Assembly (NCBI RefSeq): GCF_020217425.1
Contig: NZ_CP084090.1
Location: 2,914,001 to 2,978,000 of the forward strand
Origin: Halomicrobium urmianum
Lineage (GTDB): Archaea; Halobacteriota; Halobacteria; Halobacteriales; Haloarculaceae
Reading direction: 5' to 3'
Length of the DNA stretch: 64,000 nt
Shown: piece after piece, positions 50,697 through 52,026 of the stretch
Numbering within the stretch: the first letter of the stretch is position 1
Layout: each line of letters begins with the position of its first letter
Program-made: the position numbers and the translations under genes
Notes under the pieces: generated by a model
What the model was told of the DNA's origin: nothing
Database searches by the model: none
Seen by the model: only the letters and a program-made list of their open reading frames with translations

Positions 50697-51131
50697 ATGA
50701 GCACCGTCTCGTCGCTGCGCGGCCGGATCGACGCATCGCCTCTGACCGCCGCCCTCGCCGTGGGCGACGTCGGGGCGATCACGCTGTTCGTCGTCCTCGG
50801 ACAGCTGTCGCACGAGGTCGGCCCGCTCGCGAACCCCGAACGCGTCGTCGGAACGCTGGCGCCGTTTCTGATCGGCTGGGTCGTCGCGTCGCTGGTCGGG
50901 AGCCTCTACACGCGGGACGCACTGCAGCCGCCGGTGCGCGCCGCGTCGTGGACGCTGCCGGCCTGGATTCTCGCCGTAGTGGTCGCGCAGGCGCTGCGGG
51001 CGACCCCCTTCTTCCCGGGGAACGCGGCGCTGACGTTCGCGCTCGTCTCGATCGCAGTCGGCGGCGGTCTTCTGATCGGCTGGCGAGTCCTGCTGGCGGT
51101 GGCCAGCAGTCGCCTCTATAGTAGCAATTGA
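50697..51131 (+). CDS. DUF3054 family membrane protein
   Basis: A 144-residue membrane protein with four hydrophobic segments (LAVGDVGAITLFVVLGQLSH, TLAPFLIGWVVASLVGSLY, LPAWILAVVVAQALR, ALVSIAVGGGLLIGWRVLL), matching DUF3054. The last five residues (LYSSN) and the stop are encoded inside the left arm of the 51114-51203 inverted repeat. The natural C-terminus was probably replaced there. The ATG at 50697 is chosen; the frame extends upstream to 50049 as antisense shadow. Confidence 0.88.
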   Translation: MSTVSSLRGRIDASPLTAALAVGDVGAITLFVVLGQLSHEVGPLANPERVVGTLAPFLIGWVVASLVGSLYTRDALQPPVRAASWTLPAWILAVVVAQALRATPFFPGNAALTFALVSIAVGGGLLIGWRVLLAVASSRLYSSN

Positions 51132-51203
51132 AACTACTTACACATCGAGGGGCACCTGGGGTTCCCCTCGAGTGTGTCAGTGCGTTCAATTGCTACTATA
51201 GAG
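51114..51203. repeat. Perfect 19-bp inverted repeat with internal hairpin (MITE-like or bidirectional terminator)
   Basis: CTCTATAGTAGCAATTGAA at 51114-51132 is the exact reverse complement of 51185-51203, with a 52-base spacer. The spacer has an inner 8-bp GC stem (TCGAGGGG and CCCCTCGA) bordered by ACACA and GTGTGT. It lies between two convergent genes. A 16/19 half-copy occurs at 58711-58729. Confidence 0.85.
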
Positions 51204-51314: not shown

Positions 51315-51482
51315 TCAGCGTAGCTCGCCGGCTCCGAGGGACACCGTCGACTGGATCCACGCGTCGTGGTTCTCGCGGTCGTAGATCACGAACTCCTCGT
51401 CGCCGATGTTGAGTTCGGCGTAGCGCCGACCCTCCTCGTCGGTGGTGCCCTGGTTCACGTCGTCCGTGGCGTGCGTACTCAT
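51315..51482 (-). CDS. Small haloarchaeal protein (DUF7331-like)
   Basis: A 55-residue acidic protein. The C-terminal part, EEFVIYDRENHDAWIQSTVSL, resembles the haloarchaeal DUF7331 family, whose members share a VIYDxENxxAWIQSD block. That assignment is from memory. The ATG at 51482 fits; a longer frame to 51554 adds an unrelated basic stretch. It is monocistronic, facing the inverted repeat at its 3' end. Confidence 0.7.
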   Translation of the reverse strand: MSTHATDDVNQGTTDEEGRRYAELNIGDEEFVIYDRENHDAWIQSTVSLGAGELR

Positions 51483-52026
51483 GTGTATCCGGGGGAGCAG
51501 GACGTCTGTCCCTCCGCTCGCCGGTAACAGATGGGGGCTCATAAGCCCTCCCATCCAGTTATCACTGGTTGTAATTTCACGTTAGTTGCCAGTAAATACG
51601 GTTCTATACGTTATCACGTGTGAGATTATTCTGTTCGGGAAGGAGTACCGAGCGACGTCGCAGCGGCGTCCTCGTCCGCGTACCGATACGAGCGCGACGT
51701 TAATGGAGTGTTACGGTCGGCCCGATCCGCTTCCGTCCACCCTTCCGCGGCCCGGCCTCCTCGTCGGAGGGGCACCGGCCGCGTCTTCGGGGCTGACCGA
51801 ACCCCTGTCGCCGCGAGTGGCGCGTCGTCGGCCCACTGGCGTCGAGATCGCTCGTCTGAATCCGCTCCTCGCCGGCGCGCGCGCCGGAAATCCGGACTGT
51901 AGCCATTCATAAGTTACGAGAATAATCTATCTATACACTGCGTCGAATACGACGTGCCTACACGCAACCTTACGTGGTAATTACGGGGAACATTTATGTA
52001 CCCGTACCCCGTTATTACAAGTACGC
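51483..52026. other. Gene-poor, AT-patchy intergenic region
   Basis: These 544 bases hold no convincing gene. Basic, low-similarity frames on both strands at 51586-51912 are rejected. Two AT-rich patches (about 51555-51640 and 51905-52020) flank a GC-rich middle containing the palindrome CCGGCGCGCGCGCCGG at about 51869-51884. The right patch contains the TATA box for the next gene. Confidence 0.65.
51991..52000 (+). promoter_or_regulatory. TATA box of the small membrane protein gene
   Basis: CATTTATGTA lies about 27-36 bases before the ATG at 52027, inside an AT-rich patch. It predicts a nearly leaderless transcript. Confidence 0.6.

Follow-up and report, generated by a model that had tools for sequence, protein, structure and literature searches.

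A palindrome on the stop codon of a haloarchaeal DUF3054 gene is most probably a miniature element mobilized by an IS630 transposase

A gene that ends within a palindrome

How does a protein-coding gene come to end inside a perfect palindrome? In the window, the 64,000-nt stretch of haloarchaeal DNA analyzed here, the DUF3054 gene (50697..51131, plus strand, 144 amino acids; Pfam PF11255, E 6.3e-24) encodes a C-terminus, ...SRLYSSN-TGA, that ends within the left arm of an inverted repeat. The arms, of sequence CTCTATAGTAGCAATTGAA, lie at 51114-51132 and 51185-51203 and are exact reverse complements of 19 bp each, just as an earlier note on this DNA had described them. That note also saw a GC stem nested in the spacer. 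Folding bears this out: a GC-rich inner stem-loop (CGAGGGGCACC...GGTTCCCCTCG; 51146..51170, plus strand) forms part of a nearly complete hairpin across the 86-mer at 51116-51201, on either strand. When folded as RNA, the 86-mer reaches -51.6 kcal/mol, with a z of -9.4 relative to 200 dinucleotide shuffles. The convergent setting is likewise confirmed, as a small downstream gene on the minus strand (51315..51542), predicted by a home-made codon-usage gene caller and present in the list of open reading frames, faces DUF3054. An Rfam search of the window gave no match to the palindrome or to anything else in the window.

Two explanations had been offered, a miniature inverted-repeat element (MITE) that supplied the gene's end and a bidirectional terminator. 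Our best reading is the former. The palindrome is most probably a MITE mobilized by an IS630 transposase.

An abundant repeat family in haloarchaea

Although the palindrome is the only member of its family that our covariance model, R1, detects in the window, it is not an isolated feature. It belongs to a large family, of which we aligned 86 distinct copies from three contigs of the same genome (69 of them exactly 86 bp). This agrees with the definition of a MITE as an element with many dispersed copies and no transposase gene. An exact-core pattern finds 53 copies in this genome, and a first search with a 121-bp region had yielded 113 candidates, 40 of which were scored. Mean mutual identity is 86% among the 83 copies of at least 80 bp, and 95.5% among 40 sister copies from three genomes of the same genus.

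In variants of 65 and 76 bp, the inner stem is incomplete. Forms of about 63-65 bp in this genome (L133, L134 and L145) retain both ends, while most of the inner stem is gone. Two further copies (contig C1 at 2505228 and contig C3 at 396694) have common flanks, implying duplication of a longer segment between the two contigs.

The search for other haloarchaeal copies that the earlier note proposed was productive. Of 146 genomes in the taxonomic family, R1 detects the element in 43, which represent 10 of 22 genera; of 293 genomes drawn from the order, 87 carry it, from 31 of 87 genera. The R1 matches listed cover model positions 1-86. A sister copy matched 55 plasmid records, including those of Haloarcula, Natrinema, Natronorubrum and Halomicrobium, and most of the 20 plasmid matches listed overlap no annotated feature. 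The same copy had no match among 50,697 phage records, and the consensus of the copies in this genome matched neither plasmids nor phages. We rejected 30 stretches from a 17-mer scan of genome contigs, whose titles are not haloarchaeal, and the four matches examined from pattern scans of viral contigs, which lie in AT-rich DNA without the palindrome.

Comparison of the copies places the boundary at C51116 and G51201, so the outermost CT/AG of each 19-bp arm is chance flank. The repeat unit is thus 86 bp (51116..51201, plus strand; R1 104.8 bits, E 7.4e-19) and consists of C, TA, an 80-bp element, TA and G. Its terminal inverted repeats are 17 bp each, including the flanking C on the left (51116..51132, plus strand) and the flanking G on the right (51185..51201, minus strand).

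Sister families in other genera have the same length, the same ends and the same ACACA(T/C)CGA...GTGTG frame, and keep the inner stem with a different sequence, CGATCGCAC/GTGCGATCG where the copies in this genome have CGAGGGGCACC/GGTGCCCCTCG. In an alignment of 41 sequences, 83.8% of the cells in the palindromic structure pair, whereas shuffles reach 74.9% and slid controls 31-45%. The covariation score of these sequences is 0.240 versus 0.090, a value inflated by their relatedness and by the origin of the structure. In the copies of this genome, arm pairs 7-11 contain 12 double changes, of which 11 preserve complementarity. By contrast, RNAalifold predicted unpaired arms for a mixed set of sequences. 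Given the pairing excess, the covariation and the complementary double changes in the arms, the palindrome is maintained, either through selection for the hairpin or because one arm is copied from the other.

Target site and duplication

Conservation among copies ends at C-TA-TAGTAG...CTACTA-TA-G, and no direct repeats longer than TA occur outside these boundaries in 65 copies. To find empty sites, we joined the flanks of 18 copies from the three same-genus genomes and searched the same three genomes with them. For 12 of the 18, this retrieved 15 empty orthologous sites, in each of which exactly 2 bp separate the flanks. The dinucleotide is TA in nine sites (within CTAG in seven, CTAC in one and CTAA in one), TG in three, CG in two and CA in one; the six sites without TA count against this reading, and would reflect later substitution or another target. 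Five more retrieved sites (L265-L269) are occupied, rearranged or carry other insertions. Among the 86 copies in the DUF3054 genome, 47 have C...G flanks and 58 have TA at both ends. These empty sites establish that the element inserts at TA, usually in CTAG, and that the TA is duplicated, with a net gain of 82 bp per insertion. The target-site duplication that the earlier note had asked about is therefore TA.

It is thus for sister copies, and not for the DUF3054 copy, that empty sites reveal a precise insertion with duplicated target. As no orthologous empty site can be aligned to this copy base by base, the limits of its body (TAGTAGC...GCTACTA, 80 bp; 51119..51198, plus strand) and its duplicated TA on the left (51117..51118, plus strand) and right (51199..51200, plus strand) are assigned from the sister copies, whose empty sites keep C|TA|G with one TA. 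We infer that this copy arose in the same way as they did.

Two retrieved sites, L265 and L266, as well as positions 387-450 of a query in the empty-site search, contain a third abundant short palindrome, CATACTACCGGCTGTAC...GTACAGCCGGCAGTATCA. It has dozens of partial matches in three genomes, near orthologous sites of the 86-bp element, and is similar at its ends to another IS630 group (L289), which has TATACTGACGGCT ends. The element copy at L268 (G001:C1:1714600-1715050) has yet another palindrome nested in it, TACGG...CCGTA, which is about 80 bp long and bordered by TGA on either side. The ends of this palindrome resemble those of an IS630-type IS in the same genome (L272).

The full palindrome, the GTAG near each end and the covarying arms are also reminiscent of REP/BIME-like elements, for which a RAYT/Y1 tyrosine transposase of the IS200/IS605 type, acting on single-stranded hairpins, would be responsible. 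However, the element duplicates a TA target and has symmetrical termini. In addition, REPs, which are GTAG-tagged units, measure 20-40 bp (PMC3733652), compared with 86 bp here. We regard a REP-like origin as extremely improbable. PATEs and other IS605 derivatives, which have no terminal inverted repeats and no duplication, were rejected because the element has both.

Insertion on stop codons

When the flanks of the DUF3054 copy are joined computationally, they read CGC-CTC-TAG, which reconstructs a stop codon as it would have been before insertion. The sequence CTC-TAT-AGT-AGC-AAT-TGA would have replaced CTC-TAG. The earlier note attributed the last five residues and the stop to the arm. The stop and four residues, YSSN, do come from the element, but the L (CTC) is native, since the outer CT/AG is flank. 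Automatic parsing of DUF3054 C-termini succeeded at 11 of 30 loci (this one and 10 relatives, with 19 loci of relatives unparsed). All 10 parsed relatives, including all six same-genus genomes, have DUF3054 ends with neither YSSN nor the repeat. The earlier note would have withdrawn its proposal of an inserted gene end if related DUF3054 genes shared this end and the repeat had no other copies; the parsed relatives do not share it, and other copies are abundant. These data, together with the empty sites of sister copies, support the conclusion that the palindrome landed exactly on the DUF3054 stop codon, which gave way to four additional codons followed by a replacement stop.

Landing on a stop codon is frequent in the family. 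We determined insertion contexts with the home-made gene caller for 49 copies whose flanks extend 850 bp or more on each side, after joining these flanks with TA. Eleven lie exactly on a stop codon, 32 are intergenic and six are inside predicted genes (one of these is 14 bp from the 3′ end). Random positions meet a stop codon in 7 of 5000 cases. One copy, L019, sits on a CTAG that supplies the stop codons of both members of a convergent gene pair. CTAG is strongly avoided in the window: it occurs 24 times, whereas dinucleotides predict 91 occurrences and trinucleotides 65. Of the 24 sites, 9 are stop codons. Because CTAG is rare and so many of its occurrences are stops, its use as the target is enough to explain insertion on stop codons, and no additional preference is needed.

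The contexts also bear on the bidirectional terminator. On this hypothesis, the palindrome is a conserved terminator or mRNA 3′-end hairpin selected at gene ends, which would fit a hairpin that is very stable on both strands, the covariation of stem and arms, and the convergent genes on either side at DUF3054. However, the location of the copies gives it no support. Apart from two at locus edges, the intergenic copies comprise 15 between tandem, 12 between divergent and 3 between convergent genes, which is near the 307:211:107 of random positions; in other words, 3 of 30 are convergent versus 107 of 625 random intergenic positions. Moreover, no T-run follows the stem, and transposition is evident from the empty sites. 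A terminator selected at gene ends is thus highly improbable.

A likely partner in the IS630 family

If the palindrome is a MITE, a transposase should recognize its ends. Duplication of TA points to the IS630/Tc1-mariner group, according to the ISY100 paper (PMC2170065). We searched 13 genomes (this one and 12 other carriers) for the DDE_3 domain, and found matches in seven. They include a group of 1059-bp IS630 elements with the ends TATAGTA...TTAGAAC and TATAGTA...TTAGAA...TTGCTCAC. Its protein is an IS630-family transposase (NCBIfam NF033545 above the cut-off; DDE_3 E 1.4e-38), whose C-terminal part had no match in the PDB. The group includes the annotated ISNpe3 of Natrinema pellirubrum and the ISNamo16 family of Natrialba magadii, with the same ends.

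These IS elements end in TATAGTA/TACTATA, and the flanks are C...G in 15 of 17 unique copies, a count that leaves out six degenerate or doubtful copies. The 7 terminal bp (TATAGTA) are therefore identical in the element and the IS630 group, and both use a duplicated TA in a C...G context. An IS630-associated transposon studied by Tenzen and Ohtsubo in 1991 reportedly also prefers TA in CTAG. Past TATAGTA, 11 of 12 comparisons of an element end with an IS630-end consensus are no better than shuffles; one right end of the element does resemble the B-end consensus beyond the 7 bp (shuffle p 0.0006). In Natrialba magadii, an IS of this group lies between element-like ends, as judged by eye, as if it had inserted into the CTAG of an element copy.

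A likely autonomous relative of the kind anticipated by the earlier note thus exists in other genomes, as an IS630 group with the same 7 terminal bp, but was not found in the DUF3054 genome, which has no match to DDE_3 (PF13358) or to the IS630 query protein. Both of the IS-type ends found in this genome are element copies. Three candidate parents with paired ends 0.85-1.1 kb apart were rejected: L130 is two neighboring copies, L131 is a single copy into which an IS5-family IS has inserted, duplicating 9 bp, and L132 is an element copy plus a lone end. The IS in L131 (1128-2064, or about 1088627-1089563 of contig C1) encodes a 277-aa transposase and has the duplication AAACTAGTT. IS630 elements of the same genus, such as L272, were rejected as partners for their different ends. 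Among 146 genomes, the element and the group's transposase (at about 60% identity or more) co-occur no more often than by chance, in 12 of 43 carriers (Fisher p 0.40), counting only the matches listed for both.

Given that the genome has no such transposase or DDE_3 protein and that co-occurrence is not in excess, we consider the pairing with the IS630 group likely rather than demonstrated. Since the assembled genome lacks the cognate transposase, its copies are probably stranded or were mobilized from outside. Stranded MITEs do occur, and a cognate transposase in the same genome is not a strict requirement.

It is also conceivable that the element is a MITE of some other TA-duplicating DDE family and that convergence at the 7-bp end explains its likeness to IS630. 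The IS427-like group of IS5 is an example of such a family. Most end comparisons do find only these 7 bp in common, and co-occurrence with the IS630 group did not exceed chance among the matches listed. However, the IS630 copies share the TA target and mostly the C...G flanks, and the one IS5-family IS that we examined, in L131, has a 9-bp duplication and different ends. We therefore think another DDE family improbable, and favor IS630.

In the proposed mechanism, an IS630 transposase like that of ISNpe3 or ISNamo16 would act in trans and recognize the TATAGTA... ends. It would excise the 80-bp body and insert it at TA within CTAG, thereby duplicating the TA. With CTAG scarce and many remaining sites being TAG stops, the element would often land on stop codons. 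At DUF3054, insertion would have split CTC-TA|G, so that the gene gained YSSN and a new stop from the element. The site before insertion would be expected to carry CTCTAGAG.

Both partners bring a replacement stop. In the frame of the destroyed stop, codon 5 is TAG in 33 of 34 IS630 ends. Among 83 element copies from the DUF3054 genome, it is TGA at 76 of the left ends and 74 of the right ends; among 40 sister copies, the respective numbers are 40 and 39. An insertion on a stop codon would then add four residues, and the protein would keep a stop. Two facts speak against selection for this stop: the codon is part of the conserved motif at the end, and it is missing from one subfamily, that of L198 and L209.

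Comparison with known systems

The analysis gives boundaries, a target and a likely transposase to a widespread and mostly unannotated haloarchaeal repeat, present in 31 of the 87 genera sampled from the order. It also offers a testable answer to how small repeats without a transposase move in haloarchaea, and a mechanical route to short C-terminal protein tails, in which a CTAG-targeting element takes over a stop codon. The choice of target merits attention, as CTAG is methylated in Haloferax and haloarchaeal viruses avoid it (PMC11001535).

Our search of the literature on haloarchaeal MITEs, IS630 MITEs and CTAG repeats, with ISfinder and most subscription papers outside its scope, listed no description of this family. 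The kind of element, a TA-duplicating MITE, is already known. Correia/NEMIS, RUP and ERIC are short palindromic bacterial MITEs that duplicate TA, with the duplication hidden in their ends; they occur in other hosts and differ from the haloarchaeal element in sequence and partner. Another short MITE with a CTAG target is the 100-bp MITEPsy1 of Pseudomonas syringae, but it has a 4-bp duplication and ends related to the IS5-family ISPsy2 (PMC3189936). The ISNpe3/ISNamo16 group has the TATAGTA ends, the TA at both ends and the C...G flanks of a CTAG target. However, those elements are 1059 bp long and encode a transposase in two overlapping frames, whereas the element here is 80 bp, has no gene and is almost entirely palindrome.

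Among described elements, the small mobile repeats (SMRs) of Haloquadratum walsbyi come closest (PMC3119063). SMR-A and SMR-B are 80-110 bp long, with prominent terminal inverted repeats, no gene and tens of copies, and HqIRS41 is 80 bp. The element resembles them in all these respects, and in having a haloarchaeal host. Compared by description, not by sequence, it differs in its TA duplication, IS630-like ends and proposed IS630 partner, as the SMRs are said there to have neither a target duplication nor a related transposon, and their movement is called enigmatic (PMC3119063). A tentative and rather doubtful extension of our reading is that the element, like its partners in the IS630 family, is a stop-codon cassette, and that the Haloquadratum SMRs may be of the same kind, with a TA duplication hidden in their palindromic ends.
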